This document shows positions 7,122 through 17,433 of a stretch of 37,817 nucleotides of DNA, one piece after another. Source of the DNA: Planktotalea sp. (GTDB taxonomy: Bacteria > Pseudomonadota > Alphaproteobacteria > Rhodobacterales > Rhodobacteraceae); NCBI RefSeq assembly GCF_018607965.1, contig NZ_JABBAM010000045.1, positions 10,509 to 48,325 of the forward strand, given 5' to 3'. Below the pieces are notes generated by a model. The model saw only the letters and a program-made list of their open reading frames with translations. It was not told the DNA's origin and did not search any database. Each line of letters opens with the position of its first letter. Positions within the stretch are counted from its first letter, which is position 1. Position numbers and translations under genes: made by a program.

Positions 7122-8080
7122 GAGGTGCTCGAAAGTGCTGCGCTCAGGCGCGACCATTGATTGGGCGCGGGAAGGCCAAGGCGTAGCCAGCGTGTTGAGT
7201 AAGGAAAGACACGTGACCAAATGTGCGCGCGGGCGAGTTTGTTCTGCCACGCCTGCGCGTCACCAACATCATAAAGTCGGAAAAGCGTCGTGCCACCAGC
7301 AACCGTAGCACCTTGTTGTGCCATCAATGCATCTAGACGGGTGGTGTCAGCACCAAGACGGACGCGGGTTTGTTGGGCCCACGCATCGTCTTGCAAAGCA
7401 TTTGCGCCGATGCGTAGGGCAGGGCCGCTGACGGCCCAAGGCCCGATGAAGTTGTTCAGTTTTGCGAGTAACACGGGATCGCCTATTGCAAAGCCGAGAC
7501 GCAGGCCAGCTAGGCCCCAGAACTTGCCGAAACTTTTCAAAACGATCACACCTTTGCGGTCAGCCAGATGAATAAGGCTGGCATCAGGGGAAATGTCGCA
7601 AAAACTTTCGTCGATGATTGTGAGGGGCGCGCTTGCCTCGTCAGATTTCCATACGCGACCGTCTGGATTGTTGGGGTGCACCAAGACGCGCGCGTCTGGA
7701 CTGGTTTCGGAAACTGTCCAGCCCTGTGCAATAAACGCGGCGGCGTGTTCGTTATACGTCGGTGCGGGAATATCGACGGTTCCGATGTTACCCAAGGCTG
7801 GAATGCGCGCGATGAGCGCGGATGCACCTGGCGCGGGCAAGATCGCAGAACCGTTTGGAACGCCCCAAAAAGTGCGCGCTGCGCTCGTCAATGTTTCAAA
7901 GGCAGAAGTATCTGGAAGCGCTGTCCAGTCGTGCGATGTGAATTCACCAATAGAATATGGCACCGGATTGATTCCTGTTGAAAGGTCAATCCAATCGTTG
8001 CGTGTGCCGCCAAATTTGGCTGCTGCACCGTCTAGGCCCCCACCGTGATCGCGGCCAGTATCGCGCGCAGGATCGTTCAT
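7118..8080 (-). CDS. cobC: L-threonine-O-3-phosphate decarboxylase CobC (PLP enzyme)
   Basis: A 320-residue fold-type I aminotransferase-like protein that decarboxylates threonine phosphate to aminopropanol phosphate, the nucleotide-loop arm of B12. The substrate segment DLSTGINPVPYS, the Asn/Pro motif HPNNPDGRVW, the PLP Asp in IIDESFCD and the Schiff-base Lys in SFGKFWGLAGLRLGF are all present. In alphaproteobacteria this gene is called cobC; the Salmonella equivalent is called cobD, a known source of confusion. The start at 8080 overlaps the stop of the upstream DUF1636 gene, and its own stop overlaps the start of cobD. Confidence 0.93.
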   Translation of the reverse strand: MNDPARDTGRDHGGGLDGAAAKFGGTRNDWIDLSTGINPVPYSIGEFTSHDWTALPDTSAFETLTSAARTFWGVPNGSAILPAPGASALIARIPALGNIGTVDIPAPTYNEHAAAFIAQGWTVSETSPDARVLVHPNNPDGRVWKSDEASAPLTIIDESFCDISPDASLIHLADRKGVIVLKSFGKFWGLAGLRLGFAIGDPVLLAKLNNFIGPWAVSGPALRIGANALQDDAWAQQTRVRLGADTTRLDALMAQQGATVAGGTTLFRLYDVGDAQAWQNKLARAHIWSRVFPYSTRWLRLGLPAPNQWSRLSAALSSTS

Positions 8081-8448
8081 TCAGCGTCTGGAAGTGGGGG
8101 GTGGCGTGTGATGAAATGTCCTTTGACAGCAACTGGCCATTCGCGAAAAGGAACGCGTCCGGTATCAGACGCCGCATGTTGTTGTGCATATTCCACGATG
8201 CCCGCGGCAGACGTATCGCTCGCGTCGAATTTTCCGAGCGTATAGGCCAGTTTTCCCTTGGCTTGAATGGCGATGTTGCAGCTGTGCGAACAGCCCATCA
8301 GACATGATACTCGACGGGTCTTGATGTCAGTTCCCTCAGCGGCTTTTTCGACAGCCGCAGCCAGAACTTCACCATCGGTGAGCGCGTCTTTTTCAGCGCT
8401 CCAATCGTCGCACTTACATGTATCGCAGACTGTAATCCATGTGGTCAT
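8077..8448 (-). CDS. DUF1636 protein, Cys-rich, metal-associated
   Basis: A 123-residue protein with an N-terminal CDTCKCDDW and a central SCLMGCSHSCNIA, giving six cysteines arranged as in thioredoxin-like [2Fe-2S] ferredoxin folds. It matches the DUF1636 family, which is often found next to cobalt-transport or cobalamin genes; its biochemical role is unknown. It is the first gene of the minus-strand operon and overlaps cobC by ATGA. Cofactor or metal delivery to cobalamin synthesis is a guess from context. The region before it contains no recognisable cobalamin riboswitch core. Confidence 0.85.
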   Translation of the reverse strand: MTTWITVCDTCKCDDWSAEKDALTDGEVLAAAVEKAAEGTDIKTRRVSCLMGCSHSCNIAIQAKGKLAYTLGKFDASDTSAAGIVEYAQQHAASDTGRVPFREWPVAVKGHFITRHPPLPDAE

Positions 8449-10786: not shown

Positions 10787-11014
10787 ATGAAACCCATTTT
10801 GACATTTTTCGTCGTTTTGCTTTGGACCAATGCGGCCTTTGCACATCCGGGCCATTTGGCTGAGGTCGCAGGCCATGGCCATTGGTTGGGTGCGGCAGCC
10901 ATAGGCGCTGCGATTGCGCTGGGCGCTTGGGCGGCTTTGAAGGGTAAGAAAAAAGAAAAGAGCGAGGCCGAAGATGAGGCCCAACTCGACGATGAAGATT
11001 TGCAGGAGGCATGA
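10787..11014 (+). CDS. DUF6732-type small exported/membrane protein, His-rich mature end
   Basis: A 75-residue protein: signal peptide to about residue 19 (ending NAAFA), then HPGHLAEVAGHGHW, one hydrophobic helix (about residues 34-49, GAAAIGAAIALGAWAAL), a lysine cluster and an acidic tail EDEAQLDDEDLQEA. From memory it corresponds to the Rhodobacterales family DUF6732. After signal cleavage the mature protein would begin with His, a pattern also seen in copper and nickel/cobalt-handling membrane proteins. Being the first gene of the cobalamin ring operon, a few bases before the cobalt chelatase cbiX, it may bind or help import cobalt; that is inference. The start at 10787 follows AGGAG 8 bases upstream. 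Confidence 0.8.
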   Translation: MKPILTFFVVLLWTNAAFAHPGHLAEVAGHGHWLGAAAIGAAIALGAWAALKGKKKEKSEAEDEAQLDDEDLQEA

Positions 11015-11018
11015 TCCA

Positions 11019-12206
11019 ATGACCAAGATCGGTGTAATGATTTGCGGCCACGGCTCGCGTAGCCAATCCGCAGTTGATGAGTTTTCGACGTTGGCGGAAA
11101 AACTGCCGCCATTTTTGCCCAGCGATTGGGAAATGGAATACGGCTATCTTGAGTTCGCGAATCCTGTGATCCGCGACGGCTTAGACAAGCTGCGCGAAGC
11201 AGGTTGCGACAAGATTTTGGCAGTGCCGGGCATGTTGTTTGCGGCGATGCATTCCAAGAATGACATCCCGACTGTGTTGAATACATATGCGGCCAAGCAC
11301 GGCATAGAAGTGTCCTATGGACGTGAATTGGGTGTTGACCCCAAGATGGTGGCGGCTGCTGGTGGACGTATCAAAGACGCGGTCGAGCGTGCGAATGCAG
11401 AGCACGGCGACGTCGCTTTGCAAGACACCTGTCTTGTTGTGATTGGGCGCGGTGCATCTGACCCTGATGCAAACGGCAACGTCGCAAAGATCGCGCGTAT
11501 GCTGCAAGAAGGCATGGGCTTTGGCTGGCTTGAGGTTGGTTACTCTGGCGTGACGTTCCCCTTGGTAGAGCCTTGCCTGCAACACGCATCCAAGCTGGGC
11601 TATAAGCGGATCATCGTCTTTCCGTATTTCCTGTTCAGCGGCATTTTGATCGATCGTATTTATGGCTTTACCGATCAGGTGGCGGCCGAGCATCCAGACA
11701 TTACTTTCATCAAAGCGGGTTACCTCGGAGATCACCCCAAGGTGCTAGAAACGTTTGCAGAACGTGTGAGTGAACAGCTTGGCGCGGTGCCTCCGCCCAA
11801 TTGCGGGATTTGCGCATTTCGCGAACAAGTTCTCGCGCTTGAGGACGGCACGCACCACCATATCAAAGCCGAAGATCGCCAGCATCCTGCATTCAGTTCG
11901 GTCCCACCGCCCACATGCGTGATGTGCAAATATCGCACACAGGTCTTGGGTTTCGAATCCGAAGTGGGCGCGATCCAAGAAAGCCATCATCACCACGTTG
12001 AAGGCCAAGGTGCGTCAGCGCCCGGGTCCAATGTGGCAGATTGTAAGCTGTGTGATACGTTCTGCACCGGTATGTGTCGTTTGGCGATGCAGGACAAGCA
12101 TCACCACGATCACCACCACGGCCATGATCATGACCACGATCACCACCATGCAGAATACCCACATGCCAAGCACCCGCACGGCCCAGAAAGCGCACGGAAA
12201 CGCTGA
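11019..12206 (+). CDS. cbiX: Sirohydrochlorin cobaltochelatase CbiX with metal-binding C-terminal extension
   Basis: A 395-residue protein. Residues 1-250 are the duplicated CbiX chelatase fold: GVMICGHGSRSQSAVDEF, VPGMLFAAMHSKNDIP, then the second half VVIGRGASDPDANG and PYFLFSGILIDRI. It inserts cobalt into sirohydrochlorin, starting B12 ring synthesis. Residues 257-395 are an extension with two similar modules (VPPPNCGIC at 257-265 and VPPPTCVMC at 295-303, each followed by an R.QVL segment and a His cluster), a CKLCDTFCTGMC block at 342-353, and a His/Asp-rich tail. Some CbiX proteins carry a C-terminal Fe-S cluster and His-rich stretch, so a redox or cobalt-storage role is likely. A GGAGG overlapping the upstream stop serves the ATG at 11019. 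Its own stop overlaps cobH. Confidence 0.93.
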   Translation: MTKIGVMICGHGSRSQSAVDEFSTLAEKLPPFLPSDWEMEYGYLEFANPVIRDGLDKLREAGCDKILAVPGMLFAAMHSKNDIPTVLNTYAAKHGIEVSYGRELGVDPKMVAAAGGRIKDAVERANAEHGDVALQDTCLVVIGRGASDPDANGNVAKIARMLQEGMGFGWLEVGYSGVTFPLVEPCLQHASKLGYKRIIVFPYFLFSGILIDRIYGFTDQVAAEHPDITFIKAGYLGDHPKVLETFAERVSEQLGAVPPPNCGICAFREQVLALEDGTHHHIKAEDRQHPAFSSVPPPTCVMCKYRTQVLGFESEVGAIQESHHHHVEGQGASAPGSNVADCKLCDTFCTGMCRLAMQDKHHHDHHHGHDHDHDHHHAEYPHAKHPHGPESARKR

Positions 12207-12841
12207 TGAGACCCTATGAACGCGTCCCATCTGCGATCTATGCGCAAAGCTTTGCGACCGTGCGTGCGGAGGCGAACTTAGAGCGGTTTGATAGCGGGAT
12301 GCAAAGCCTTGCTGTGCGCCTTATTCATGCCTGCGGTATGGTCGAGGTCGCAGATCGCATTGCCTATTCACAGGGTGCATATCTTGCGGGGCATCGTGCG
12401 TTGCAGGCCGGTGCGCCTGTTTTATGTGATTGCGAGATGGTCGGGGCTGGTATCATTCGGCGATATTTGCCGAGTGATAATCAGGTGATTGTGACGTTGA
12501 ATGACCCCAGTGTTCCTGAGCGTGCGGCTTCTATTGGCAATACGCGATCTGCTGCGGCGGTGGAACTGTGGGAGCCCCATTTGGAGGGCGCAGTTGTTGC
12601 GATTGGCAATGCGCCGACGGCCTTGTTTCATTTGCTTGAGATGATTGACGCAGGTGCGCCAAAGCCTGCTGTGATCCTAGGATTTCCTGTGGGTTTTGTT
12701 GGAGCGGCTGAAAGCAAGGCCGAGCTTGCGGATCGTCCGCGCGGGTGTGCGTTTGTTGCTTTGCGTGGTCGACGTGGGGGATCTGCGATTGCTTCTGCAG
12801 CGGTGAATGCTTTGGCGGCTGGATTGCCGGAAGAGCAATGA
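12206..12841 (+). CDS. cobH: Precorrin-8X methylmutase CobH
   Basis: A 211-residue enzyme that moves the methyl group from C11 to C12, converting precorrin-8 to hydrogenobyrinic acid (or the cobalt form to cobyrinate). The catalytic His lies in VRLIHACGMVE, and further family marks are VLCDCEMVGAGI, ETRSAAAVELW-like NTRSAAAVELW, IGNAPTALFHLLE and GFPVGFVGAAESK. The ATG shares one base with the cbiX stop (TGATG), indicating translational coupling. It is 60 bases before cobL, with a hairpin element between. Confidence 0.95.
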   Translation: MRPYERVPSAIYAQSFATVRAEANLERFDSGMQSLAVRLIHACGMVEVADRIAYSQGAYLAGHRALQAGAPVLCDCEMVGAGIIRRYLPSDNQVIVTLNDPSVPERAASIGNTRSAAAVELWEPHLEGAVVAIGNAPTALFHLLEMIDAGAPKPAVILGFPVGFVGAAESKAELADRPRGCAFVALRGRRGGSAIASAAVNALAAGLPEEQ

Positions 12842-12844
12842 GCT

Positions 12845-12886
12845 ATTTTTCTAGAAAAATCGGGTGCCTCCGGCGGGGATATTTAG
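12845..12886 (+). terminator. Palindrome plus GC-rich hairpin between cobH and cobL
   Basis: ATTTTTCTAGAAAAAT (12845-12860) is a perfect 16-base palindrome, followed by GTGCCTCCGGCGGGGATATTT, in which CCTC and GGGG can pair around CGGC before a T-rich end. I recall the CCTCCGGCGGGGATATTT string as a very common intergenic, terminator-like element in Rhodobacterales. It may attenuate transcription into cobL. GATATTT and the following GAAAAGG recur before cobM. Confidence 0.45.
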
Positions 12887-12901
12887 AAAAGGAGAATGTG
12901 T

Positions 12902-14104
12902 ATGTCTGATCCTTGGCTTCATATTGTTGGAATTGGCGAAGACGGGATGGAGGGGCTTGTCCCTGCGACCCGCGCCGTTGTTGAGGCAGCCGAAATTATT
13001 ATTGGTGGGGATCGTCATCATCGGTTGAGTGGTTCTGTGAGCGCTACGCGCGTTGCTTGGCCCTCGCCGTTTGATGCGTTGATTGATGTTTTGGAAAGCC
13101 ATCGCGGTAAACGCGTTGTTGTTTTAGCGACGGGGGATCCTTTGTGGTTTTCCGTTGGTGCGCGCATTGGGCGAGCGATTGATCCAAGTAAAATTACCTA
13201 TCATCCGCAGTTGAGTGCGTTTCAATTAGCGGGAGCGCGCATGGGTTGGTCAATGCCTGACGTGGAAACGTTGACGGTGCATGGGCGTCCTGTGGAACAG
13301 ATGATCGCCTATATTCAGCCCGACATTCGTTTGCTGATTTTGACGACGGGTGCTGAGACACCTGCGCAGATTGCTGCGTTCTTGAGCGCACGTGGGTTTG
13401 GGCAAAGTAAGATGACGGTCTTGGCTGCAATGGGTGGTCAGGACGAGCAACGGTTTGACGGGATTGCTGCAGATTGGGATCATGTGGTGCCTGCGTTTAA
13501 CACAATGGCTGTTGAATGCATTGCGGCCCCTGATGCCGCACTTTTGCCGCGTGTTCCGGGACTATCGGATGAGTTGTTCCAAAGCGATGGAACGATGACC
13601 AAGCAAGAGGTGCGCGCTGCGACGTTGGCGAAGTTGATGCCGATGCGTGGCGCACTTTTGTGGGACATTGGGACGGGCTGTGGATCAGTTGCTGTCGAAT
13701 GGATGCGCGCTGCGCGTTATGCACGTGCGATTGGGATTGAGCCACGCGCTGACAGACGTGCGATGGCAGCCGCGAATGCGCTGGCTTTGGGCGCGCCGAA
13801 GTTGGAATTGATCGACGGTAAAGTACCCGAGGCTTTAGCTGGTTTGGACGCACCGGACGCTGTGTTTATTGGTGGTGGATTGTCTGATGCGACGTTTGAC
13901 GCAGCTTGGGGTGCTTTGCGACCTCTGGGACGTTTGGTAGCCAATGCCGTGACGTTGGAAAGTGAAGCGGTCTTGATCCGTTTGCACAAGGTACACGGTG
14001 GGCAGTTGGTGAAACTACAAGTGAACCGCGCCGAACCTGTTGGGTCCATGACGGGCTGGCGACCCTTCATGCCCGTCACACAATGGAGCTTGATCAAGCG
14101 ATGA
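12902..14104 (+). CDS. cobL: Precorrin-6Y C5,15-methyltransferase (decarboxylating) CobL, CbiE-CbiT fusion
   Basis: A 400-residue two-domain enzyme. Residues 1-205 are the CbiE-type tetrapyrrole methylase (LHIVGIGEDGMEGL, GDRHHRLSG, VLATGDPLWFSVG). Residues about 215-400 are the CbiT-type class I methyltransferase, with the SAM motif LLWDIGTGCGSVAVEW near residue 253 and DAVFIGGGLSD. Together they methylate C5 and C15 and decarboxylate the C12 acetate. The ATG at 12902 is preferred over one at 12896 because AAGGAG is then 7 bases away. The stop overlaps the start of cobI (ATGA). Confidence 0.95.
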   Translation: MSDPWLHIVGIGEDGMEGLVPATRAVVEAAEIIIGGDRHHRLSGSVSATRVAWPSPFDALIDVLESHRGKRVVVLATGDPLWFSVGARIGRAIDPSKITYHPQLSAFQLAGARMGWSMPDVETLTVHGRPVEQMIAYIQPDIRLLILTTGAETPAQIAAFLSARGFGQSKMTVLAAMGGQDEQRFDGIAADWDHVVPAFNTMAVECIAAPDAALLPRVPGLSDELFQSDGTMTKQEVRAATLAKLMPMRGALLWDIGTGCGSVAVEWMRAARYARAIGIEPRADRRAMAAANALALGAPKLELIDGKVPEALAGLDAPDAVFIGGGLSDATFDAAWGALRPLGRLVANAVTLESEAVLIRLHKVHGGQLVKLQVNRAEPVGSMTGWRPFMPVTQWSLIKR

Positions 14105-14802
14105 CTGGCAAATTGTATGGTATCGGGCTTGGTCCCGGTGATCCCGAATTAATGACGCTGCGGGCGCACCGTTTGATCGCGGGCGCTAGGGTTGTTGCTT
14201 ACCCCGCACTTGCGGGGGCGGCGAGTTTCGCGCGATCTATCGCAGCAGATGTGATTCCCAGAGATGCACGTGAGATTGTGATGGACGTGCCCATGAGCGT
14301 CGAACGCGCGCCCGCCCAAGCGGCCTATGACAAGGGTGCTGCAGAAATTGCTAACGCGCTAAACGCGGGTGATGATGTGATTTGTTTGTGCGAGGGCGAT
14401 CCGTTTTTCTATGGCTCTTTCATGTATTTGTTTGCGCGCTTGTCTGAGCGGTTTGAAGTGGAAGTCGTGCCCGGTGTGACCTCGATCACGACCTGTGCTG
14501 CAAGCGCTGGCATGCCTTTGGCGGCGCGTAACGAACGATTAACTGTGTTGCCCGGTCCTTTACCCGAAGATGAATTGCGTGCGCGTATTGAAGGTGCAGA
14601 AAGCGTCGCGATCATGAAGGTTGGTCGACATCTTGCGAAAATCAAAGGTGTGATTGATGACTTGGATCTAACGGATCGCGCCGTTTACGTGGAACGGGCG
14701 AGCTTGCCTGAGGAACTTGTACTGCCTTTGGCAGATGCGCCTGAAAAAGCCCCCTATTTTTCGATGATTTTGCTCACGAAAGGAGCCGATCCATGGCTGT
14801 GA
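14101..14802 (+). CDS. cobI: Precorrin-2 C20-methyltransferase CobI
   Basis: A 233-residue SAM-dependent tetrapyrrole methylase making precorrin-3A (or its cobalt form) from precorrin-2. Visible motifs are YGIGLGPGDPELMTLRAHRLI, the SAM-loop GDDVICLCEGDPFFYGSFMYLF and VEVVPGVTSITTCAASAGMPL. The ATG at 14101 lies in the cobL stop (ATGA), with GGAG 11 bases upstream. An in-frame ATG at 14083 would add six residues and is less likely. The end overlaps the cbiG/cobJ gene by 10 bases. Confidence 0.94.
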   Translation: MTGKLYGIGLGPGDPELMTLRAHRLIAGARVVAYPALAGAASFARSIAADVIPRDAREIVMDVPMSVERAPAQAAYDKGAAEIANALNAGDDVICLCEGDPFFYGSFMYLFARLSERFEVEVVPGVTSITTCAASAGMPLAARNERLTVLPGPLPEDELRARIEGAESVAIMKVGRHLAKIKGVIDDLDLTDRAVYVERASLPEELVLPLADAPEKAPYFSMILLTKGADPWL

Positions 14803-16619
14803 GACCGACTTTTGTGAAACCTGTTGTATTGACGCTTTCGCGCTCTGGTGAAGCAACCGCGCACCGTGTGGCAAAGGCGATTGATGCGCAGGTGCATGGA
14901 CGCGAAGGCCGTGTTGATGGGGCGGATGTGTTCTTCGCGAACGCTTTGGATCATGCACGTGAATTGTTCGCAGCGGGGATCCCTGTGATTGGCGTGTGCG
15001 CGAGCGGAATTCTTATTCGCGGTGTCGCGTCTTTGTTGGCAGATAAACGCAACGAACCGCCCGTGATATCGGTCAGTGATGATGGCGGCGTAGTTGTACC
15101 GCTGCTTGGTGGGCATCGCGGTGCGAACCGTTTGGCGCGTCAGATTTCAGAAGCACTAGGTGGCGTTGCTGCGGTGACGACGGCTGGCGATGTTGCAATG
15201 GGTGTTGCATTGGATGAACCGCCCGTTGGGTACGCGTTGGCAAATCCTGAGGACGCCAAAGGCGCGATGGCTGCGATGTTGGGTGGTGCAGGCATGCGCG
15301 TAACGGGCTCGAATATTTTCGACGTTGAAAGCACAGGTGACGGAGTTGAATTGATTATAACCGAAGCACCTGTCGCAGGGTCCGAGGCTGCGCTGATCTA
15401 TCATCCGCAGCGCTTTGTATTGGGCCTTGGATGTGCACGCAATGCGGATCCTGCTGAAATGTGGGACTTGGTGCAGAGCGTTTTGGCGGATGCTGGGATT
15501 GCTGAAGGTGCGGTTGCTGCTGTTGCCTCGATTGACTTGAAAGGTGACGAGCCTGCGATGATCGAAACGGCGAAGCGCCTTGGTGTGCCTTTGCGTTTGT
15601 TCACGGCGGCTGAGCTTGAAGCAGAAGTCGCGCGTTTGCAGAATCCGTCTGACGTGGTCTTTGCTGAGGTCGGGTGTCACGGGGTAAGTGAAGGCGCTGC
15701 TTTGGCAATTGTTGGCGCATCTGGGTCTTTGCGTATTGCGAAACAAAAGACCGCGAATGTGACTGTGGCTTTGGGTGAAGCGGTTGAGCCGTTGATCGAG
15801 TTTGCGGGCCGTTCGCGTGGACGTTTGTCGATCGTGGGCATTGGACCGGGGCAAGCAAGCTGGCGCACGCCTGAGGTGTCGCGCCTCGTTGCGGATGCTG
15901 AAGAATTGGTCGGATATGGGCTGTATATTGATCTGCTGGGGCCTTTGGCGATTGGCAAAGAGCAGTCTGACTTCCCGCTTGGGGGCGAAGAAGCGCGGTG
16001 TCGTTATGCGCTCGAGCAAGCCGCACTCGGCAAGAACGTCGCTTTGGTCTGTTCCGGTGATGCGGGCATCTATGCGATGGGTGCGTTGGTGTTTGAATTG
16101 ATGGATCGCGGCGAAAACGAAATGGGCGTCAGCGATGCTGCGCACCGTGTCGAGGTCGTGTGTTCGCCCGGTGTGTCTGCGTTGCAAGGTGCGGCTGCAC
16201 GGGCTGGTGCGCCCTTGGGACATGATTTCTGTGCTATTTCGCTAAGCGATTTACTAACGCCCCGTGATGATATTTTGCGCCGCTTGAAAGCTGCGGCTGA
16301 GGGTGATTTTGTGATTGCCTTCTATAACCCCGTTTCAAAAACCCGTCGTACTTTGCTAGCCGAAGCACGTGACATTCTGTTGAAGCATCGCCCTGCGGAT
16401 ACGCCTGTGATGTTGGCGTCGTCCCTTGGACGACCAGAAGAACACGTGCGCTATCGTCGTCTGGATGAATTACAGGTTGATGAGGTCGACATGCTGACGG
16501 TGGTTTTGATCGGGTCAAGCAATTCGAAACTCGCGCAGCTTGGCGAAGGGCCACGCATGTACACGCCGCGTGGCTACGCGCGCAAAATTGACGGCGATTT
16601 GTCTGAGCAAGCGTCGTGA
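14793..16619 (+). CDS. cobJ: CbiG-CobJ fusion: (cobalt-)precorrin-5A hydrolase and precorrin-3B C17-methyltransferase
   Basis: A 608-residue fusion. Residues about 1-335 are CbiG-like: an N-terminal part with GVCASGILIR and PLLGGHRGANRLARQI, and a C-terminal part with LGLGCARNADPAEMW and EVGCHGVSEGAAL. CbiG opens the delta-lactone and releases acetaldehyde in the cobalt-first pathway. Residues about 344-600 are the CobJ/CbiH methylase that drives ring contraction (LSIVGIGPGQASWRTPE, VALVCSGDAGIYAMG, VVCSPGVSALQGAAARAGAPL, VIAFYNPVSKTR). CbiG-CbiH/CobJ fusions are known elsewhere. GGAG lies 8 bases before the ATG at 14793. The presence of CbiG with CbiX points to cobalt insertion early. Confidence 0.93.
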   Translation: MAVRPTFVKPVVLTLSRSGEATAHRVAKAIDAQVHGREGRVDGADVFFANALDHARELFAAGIPVIGVCASGILIRGVASLLADKRNEPPVISVSDDGGVVVPLLGGHRGANRLARQISEALGGVAAVTTAGDVAMGVALDEPPVGYALANPEDAKGAMAAMLGGAGMRVTGSNIFDVESTGDGVELIITEAPVAGSEAALIYHPQRFVLGLGCARNADPAEMWDLVQSVLADAGIAEGAVAAVASIDLKGDEPAMIETAKRLGVPLRLFTAAELEAEVARLQNPSDVVFAEVGCHGVSEGAALAIVGASGSLRIAKQKTANVTVALGEAVEPLIEFAGRSRGRLSIVGIGPGQASWRTPEVSRLVADAEELVGYGLYIDLLGPLAIGKEQSDFPLGGEEARCRYALEQAALGKNVALVCSGDAGIYAMGALVFELMDRGENEMGVSDAAHRVEVVCSPGVSALQGAAARAGAPLGHDFCAISLSDLLTPRDDILRRLKAAAEGDFVIAFYNPVSKTRRTLLAEARDILLKHRPADTPVMLASSLGRPEEHVRYRRLDELQVDEVDMLTVVLIGSSNSKLAQLGEGPRMYTPRGYARKIDGDLSEQAS

Positions 16620-16644
16620 TTGGATATTTGGAAAAGGTGAAGCG

Positions 16645-17433
16645 ATGACCGTTTATTTTATTGGAGCGGGGCCGGGAGATCCTGAATTGCTGACGCTAAA
16701 AGCACAGCGTTTGATTGCGGCATGTCCTGTATGTATGTACGCAGGATCTTTGGTTCCGGAAGAGGTAGTTGCGGGTGCACCTGAGGGCGCACGCGTGATG
16801 GATACCGCCCCTATGACGCTGGATGATACGCACGGCGAAATTCTGGCAGCGCATGGACGTGGCGAAGACGTCGCCCGTGTGCATTCGGGTGATCCGTCTT
16901 TGTACGGCGCGATTGCAGAGCAGATCAGGCGCTTGCGCGCGGATAATATCGACTATCAGATTATTCCAGGTGTGCCTGCATATGCGGCTGCTGCGGCGGC
17001 CTTGGGTCAAGAATTGACAGTGCCAGAAATTGCGCAATCAATTATTTTGACACGTGTTTCGATGAAGAGCACATCGATGCCGCCCAAAGAAACTTTAGAG
17101 AATTTCGCTGCAACCGGCGCAACTTTGGCGATTCATTTGGGTGTTAGAAATTTGCGCGAGATAGTGCGTGTATTGGGGCCGCACTACGGCGACGATTGTC
17201 CTGTGGTCGTCGCGTATCGTGTGGGTTGGCCAGATCAGATGTTCATTCGTGGCACGCTTAAAGACATCCACAAAAAGGTGCGCGCTGAGAAGATTACGCG
17301 CACGGCATTGACGCTTGTTGGGCCCGTCTTGGGCAACATCCGCGATTTCAAAGACAGCGCGCTTTATGATCCCGCAATGCCGCATGTTTTGCGACCTGTG
17401 GATGGGGCAATCTTGGATGAACCGATTGACTAG
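16645..17433 (+). CDS. cobM: Precorrin-4 C11-methyltransferase CobM
   Basis: A 262-residue tetrapyrrole methylase adding the C11 methyl group. Family motifs: VYFIGAGPGDPELLTLKAQRLI, CMYAGSLVPEEV, ARVHSGDPSLYGAIAEQ and IPGVPAYAAAAAALGQELTVP, with the long C-terminal VAYRVGWPDQ segment. AAGGTGA precedes the ATG at 16645 by a few bases. It is the last gene of the plus-strand cobalamin run and is followed by a very long hairpin. Precorrin-6A reductase (CobK/CbiJ) and a C1 methylase are not in this operon. Confidence 0.95.
   Translation: MTVYFIGAGPGDPELLTLKAQRLIAACPVCMYAGSLVPEEVVAGAPEGARVMDTAPMTLDDTHGEILAAHGRGEDVARVHSGDPSLYGAIAEQIRRLRADNIDYQIIPGVPAYAAAAAALGQELTVPEIAQSIILTRVSMKSTSMPPKETLENFAATGATLAIHLGVRNLREIVRVLGPHYGDDCPVVVAYRVGWPDQMFIRGTLKDIHKKVRAEKITRTALTLVGPVLGNIRDFKDSALYDPAMPHVLRPVDGAILDEPID

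Follow-up and report, generated by a model that had tools for sequence, protein, structure and literature searches.

The window, by which we mean the whole 37,817-nucleotide stretch of Planktotalea sp. DNA analysed here, contains a cbiX gene whose product, P0001, joins a chelatase domain of two lobes to a tail rich in Cys and His (Table 1). The gene is preceded by an AGGAGG stretch resembling a ribosome site, and is flanked upstream by a gene for a small DUF6732 protein and downstream by a run of B12 ring genes, two of which received their CobL and CobI names from gene order and length.

Table 1. Features of the cbiX gene, its product P0001 and neighbouring genes (positions in the window).
Feature	Positions	Strand	Residues of P0001	Remarks
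DUF1636 protein, Cys-bearing	8077-8448	-		beside CobD- and CbiB-like genes
DUF6732 protein, small, His-bearing	10787-11014	+		directly upstream of cbiX; PF20506, 5.3e-29
cbiX, long form (CbiX-L) by homology and context	11019-12206	+	395 aa	P0001; Pfam CbiX (PF01903), 2.2e-50, in two stretches
Class II chelatase domain, two lobes	11031-11777	+	5-253	by alignment to SirB 6jv6
Copy 1, VPPPNCGICAFREQVL	11787-11834	+	257-272	extra shortened CxxC-R-Q-L copy
HHH behind copy 1	11853-11861	+	279-281	not general among relatives
Copy 2, VPPPTCVMCKYRTQVL	11901-11948	+	295-310	ordinary CbiX-L CxxC element (MXCXXC elsewhere)
QESHHHHVEG	11976-12005	+	320-329	conserved His element of the ordinary module; HHHH at 323-326
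Four-Cys element, CKLCDTFCTGMC	12042-12077	+	342-353	CxxCx3Cx3C; among proteins read, mainly Rhodobacteraceae
His/Asp tail	12084-12203	+	356-395	15 His
C-terminal motif, YPHAKHPHGPES	12156-12191	+	380-391	pattern H..H[PRA].GP
B12 ring genes: CbiC/CobH, CobL-like methylase, CobI-like methylase, CbiG-CobJ fusion, CobM	12206-17433	+		3' of cbiX
Fusion of both CbiG domains (N- and C-terminal) with a tetrapyrrole methylase	14793-16619			608 residues; methylase CobJ-like by context

The surroundings of cbiX were compared in 69 named loci with both flanks whose CbiX, like P0001, carries two CxxC modules in its tail (two-module loci). The first four downstream genes have same-strand matches in 69, 69, 68 and 68 of these loci, and the DUF6732 protein is matched in 64. 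This neighbour is not universal, since among the short loci it was matched in 18 of the 47 with a one-module protein carrying the four-Cys element and in 0 of the 11 without that element. The DUF6732 protein has HPGH and HGHW near its start as well as hydrophobic stretches, and a role in handling cobalt may be guessed for it. A DUF1636 match lies nearby on the strand opposite to cbiX in 47 of the 69 loci. An Rfam search of window positions 1-37817 found one tRNA and no other RNA family at the gathering score; no cobalamin riboswitch reached that score despite the many B12 genes present.

The gene content of the family was surveyed in 248 genomes drawn from Rhodobacteraceae, 78 of which have a CbiX match. 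CbiD, which is also present in the genome of the window, was found in 76 genomes of the draw, namely 75 of the 78 with CbiX and 1 of the 170 others. A CobN-profile match of more than 900 bits in one piece is distributed in the same way (76 of 78 versus 1 of 170), and where cbiX and a long cobN share a contig, 42 of the 49 pairs lie within 25 kb. The CobN cut-off was passed by 169 genomes of the draw, including another 92 beyond those with such single-piece matches; those of the latter that are listed match in two pieces, none of them above about 626 bits, and most of the frames are about 1100 residues long. The co-occurrence of CbiX with CbiD and a long CobN therefore places it in a distinct cobalt-early gene set of Rhodobacteraceae. 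A CobN-type chelatase subunit is encoded in the genome of the window too (G000:C87:1791-5480), and CbiX may thus not be its sole cobalt chelatase.

The identification of P0001 as a CbiX, proposed in the initial annotation, is borne out by its Pfam match and its predicted fold. The nearest solved sequences are those of Bacillus SirB, and the AlphaFold model of residues 1-355 gave SirB 5zt9 as the best Foldseek match (E 3.6e-13, 30% identity over 253 columns); with the Pfam match in two stretches, this fold indicates two fused CbiX lobes. His11 and His78 do not vary among the 49 two-module sequences aligned. Both belong to the N-terminal lobe, at the same place as the published catalytic pair of CbiX-L, which a review gives as His14/His79 for the Bacillus megaterium enzyme (PMC7689651). 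A single match to P0001 was found in its own draft genome (about 91% completeness). By homology and gene context, P0001 is assigned as a long-form CbiX (CbiX-L), the predicted cobaltochelatase of the cobalt-early B12 route, and its context, with B12 ring genes adjacent and CbiD in the genome, suggests cobalt insertion into sirohydrochlorin as its activity.

A counterpoint is that the nearest solved structures are SirB ferrochelatases, and P0001 might accordingly be a siroheme ferrochelatase of the type of SirB or of the CbiX of P. pantotrophus. Bacillus subtilis SirB shares the chelatase fold with P0001 at about 30% identity over 253 columns; however, it is a siroheme ferrochelatase and the match is limited to the chelatase part. 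According to the review the His pair of the P. pantotrophus CbiX is C-terminal (PMC7689651), while that of P0001 sits in the N-terminal lobe, and a same-strand CobH match lies downstream of cbiX in 69 of the 69 named loci with both flanks. On these two grounds we reject a siroheme chelatase identity, which appears very improbable.

Every element described for the tail in the initial annotation was found: two copies of VPPPxCxxC...RxQVL with their first Cys residues 38 residues apart (Cys262 and Cys300), the four-Cys element and the His/Asp tail. The model of this region is of low confidence (pLDDT below 50 at residues 299-342 and 344-355) and therefore the geometry of possible tail sites is not readable from it. 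A sequence search of solved structures with the tail alone (residues 253-355) gave a best match of only E 0.33.

Long-form CbiX proteins are described as carrying a C-terminal MXCXXC motif and a His-rich region, and an extension of this kind, which the initial annotation took to be known from other CbiX proteins, is indeed present both in the literature consulted and in single-module relatives. The Cys-pair element of P0001 is homologous to MNCxxCKYR and [ML]ECDxC of relatives, and its His-rich C-terminal region has 15 His within the last 40 residues. P0001 lacks the Met with which MXCXXC literally begins, both copies having Pro there. In the family draw, the 46 one-module proteins have P (30), M (12), E (3) or D (1) at this place, and 5 of 13 distant relatives have Leu; on this comparison we do not treat the literal Met as a defining feature of CbiX-L.

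Copy 1 was compared with copy 2 and with the module of relatives. The local alignment of the two copies scores 82, a value reached by 0 of 20000 shuffles of the copy-1 stretch (maximum 48), and at the DNA level 37 of 57 bases over 19 codons are identical. When a module profile was derived from 36 distinct single modules, all of them from outside Rhodobacteraceae, every one of the 111 copy-1 stretches scored between 12.6 and 26.6 bits (17.9 for that of the window), whereas the maximum on 2220 shuffled stretches is 9.1 bits. These profile and shuffle scores show copy 1 to be homologous to the single module, and thus a true copy of a known element.

The extent of the doubling was examined in 199 CbiX proteins read from fetched loci, using the pattern CxxCx[YFH]R as module finder. 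Two modules together with the four-Cys element are present in 111 of these proteins, one module with the four-Cys element in 48, one module without it in 38, and neither in 2. HHHH follows copy 2 in all 111 two-module proteins. Between the copies, HHH is found in 19 and a single His in 48 of the 111, and the spacing of the first Cys residues ranges from 38 to 49. The His cluster that the initial annotation placed behind each copy thus exists in P0001, but behind copy 1 it is shown by the proteins read not to be conserved. Duplication of the whole module including its His cluster was rejected as a general description on the same count of HHH. Conservation across 95 distinct copy-1 stretches is 100% for P, N and L, 98% for Q and 97% for G, far above that of the following stretch, while Cys and Arg are at 100% by construction of the pattern. 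Neither the Lys of CKYR nor the GFE.EVG..QESHHHH part of copy 2 is kept in copy 1. What is doubled in general is the CxxC-R-Q-L half, giving a full module with a half module upstream of it rather than the whole module twice.

A degenerate copy 1 hidden in most one-module proteins was also considered and rejected, since the position of the first module Cys is about equal in the two classes; within the family it is mostly residue 262, with one one-module protein at 270. The four-Cys element occurs in 159 of the 199 proteins, and outside the family in 3 of the 40 loci from the class search (L032, L189, L198). The pattern H..H[PRA].GP is found within the last 60 residues of 110 of the 111 two-module proteins, 43 of the 48 one-module proteins with the four-Cys element, 28 of the 38 without it and 1 of the 2 with neither.

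In the family draw, from which one locus was read per genome, two modules occur in 30 of the 78 CbiX genomes (L001-L030), one in 46 (two of these proteins, L174 and L179, being cut by contig ends) and none in 2 (L186, L187). The figure of 30 out of 78 was taken as the prevalence; a further locus set, the best 80 of 254 relatives, consists entirely of two-module proteins as an effect of its selection. Two modules were found in 0 of the 59 loci read outside the family, which come from 40 class-search and 19 phylum-search genomes and represent part of the matches of those searches (two phylum loci repeat genomes already read). The 21 phylum-search loci, among them the cut L214, were scored by eye, and two of the 59 outside-family loci, L216 and L217, are without CxxC altogether. 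The named two-module loci include the marine genera Planktotalea, Yoonia, Octadecabacter, Roseovarius, Litoreibacter, Maritimibacter and Thalassovita. The doubling is common but patchy in Rhodobacteraceae. The tandem repeat had been noted in the initial annotation as unusual among CbiX proteins, and this holds for the loci outside the family and for the literature searched, where no description of a doubled CbiX motif was found and a mention elsewhere is possible, but it does not hold within the family. The patchy presence of copy 1 suggests that the enzyme can do without it.

Proteins with one and with two modules are intermingled in Rhodobacteraceae. A quick tree calculated from 193 rows of the chelatase domain requires at least 18 changes of the doubled state, although 93 of its 190 inner branches were drawn open (support below 80) and the well-supported branches force only one. 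Holding 52 doubled proteins as one clade costs 90 log-likelihood units in a test on 103 of the 193 rows, which included 27 of the 80 rows L060-L139 and only three one-module proteins without the four-Cys element; a single clade of doubled forms is rejected at p-AU 0.031 for these chelatase-domain sequences. The first-branching members of the family have a single MNCxxC module and the single form is therefore likely to be ancestral. Repeated changes of copy number, or an exchange of tails between genomes, are probable, and the transfer of eleven B12 genes reported in a study of marine Roseobacter genomes fits such a history (PMC2904699).

The interspersed forms and the rejected single clade, together with the variable spacing and the scarcity of HHH behind copy 1, are what would be expected if copy 1 were functionally neutral and had arisen by drift, as repeats expanded and collapsed in a flexible tail. 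However, the near-invariant P, N, L, Q and G of the distinct copy-1 stretches argue against neutrality, and we regard it as a real possibility, although somewhat short of an even one.

Among the characterised systems, CbiX-L of Bacillus (Priestia) megaterium (Leech et al. 2003) resembles P0001, as reviews describe it, in being a class II chelatase of two lobes with catalytic His residues in the N-terminal lobe, a C-terminal MXCXXC motif and a His-rich stretch. Compared by description, P0001 differs from it in having Pro for Met, an extra CxxC copy and the four-Cys element. The Trichodesmium CbiX Tery_4741 also has the MXCXXC motif and a C-terminal His-rich region, and in the text available a doubled motif is not mentioned (PMC5816740). 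Single-module CbiX proteins of other Alphaproteobacteria (L032-L059, L188-L199) mostly share HHHHVEG and a His tail with P0001, many ending in HPYPHADHPxGP, and mostly read MNCxxCKYRxQVLGFExEVG..QESHHHHVEGIG; unlike P0001, copy 1 is absent from 40 of these 40 and the four-Cys element from 37. In 13 more distant loci the element reads MECDGC or MECDCC (8) or LECDGC (5), then K or R, mostly with a short His run.

The MXCXXC motif and His region of CbiX-L are said to house a 4Fe-4S centre (PMC7689651), a report which carries over to P0001 through homology of the Cys pairs only, the Met of MXCXXC being Pro in both copies. The same review proposes metal storage and delivery as the role of the extension, while cobalt sensing has been proposed elsewhere (PMC8390425), so that the suggestion of cobalt storage by the P0001 tail had precedents in print. 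The initial annotation had further suggested that chelation is controlled by redox state, in which case such clusters would act as a switch for cobalt insertion. The reported presence of Fe-S in the CbiX-L extension would permit this, but B. megaterium CbiX-L is reported to insert cobalt normally after deletion of the extension (PMC7689651). The redox control of catalysis is disfavoured by this dispensability, and we consider it improbable.

We consider it fairly probable, taking the evidence as a whole, that P0001 is a CbiX-L cobaltochelatase in which a known extension has been enlarged into a metal-collecting or buffering Fe-S tail with copy 1 as an optional part. P0001 would insert Co2+ into sirohydrochlorin by means of His11 and His78 of the N-terminal lobe, within the cobalt-early B12 pathway. 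The base of its tail would correspond to the known CbiX-L extension, a single CxxC element with QESHHHHVEG and a His run behind it. Rhodobacteraceae would have enlarged it by the four-Cys element ahead of the His run and, in some lineages, by the extra CxxC-R-Q-L copy upstream. We infer that the tail most likely serves to gather or buffer metal close to the active site, and that Fe-S is most likely bound by its Cys pairs.

It may also be hypothesized that the two CxxC pairs provide four thiolates for a 4Fe-4S cluster within one chain, instead of one shared by two chains, with the four-Cys element as a second site. The number of Cys in recognised elements (8 in two-module proteins, 6 in one-module proteins with the four-Cys element and 2 in those without it) and the retention of the Cys-bearing half in copy 1 are in line with such an arrangement. 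Nevertheless, the tail model is of low confidence, one-module members of the family with the four-Cys element already possess six such Cys, and the sharing by two chains in single-module CbiX-L is a proposal of ours. We therefore regard an intrachain cluster as rather unlikely.

The extra shortened Cys-pair copy amounts to a modest elaboration of something already known, because tails of this kind have been described already and copy 1 comes and goes among related marine bacteria. A 2021 review calls it unclear why several chelatases carry Fe-S centres that are dispensable for catalysis (PMC7689651). Rhodobacteraceae offer close natural variants of otherwise similar enzymes that differ in having one or two CxxC copies and in the presence or absence of the four-Cys element, and a comparison of these variants could reveal the role of the Cys pairs. 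If the intrachain cluster were true, lineages that switch copy number would be natural experiments on the catalysis-dispensable clusters of chelatases.

The four CbiX proteins without a CxxC module (L186, L187, L216 and L217) have its place occupied by a stretch like MSSFKRRLAAGEVEVHHHHAE. CCCF or CNCF is seen near the C-terminus in L186, L216 and L217, L187 being cut by a contig end.
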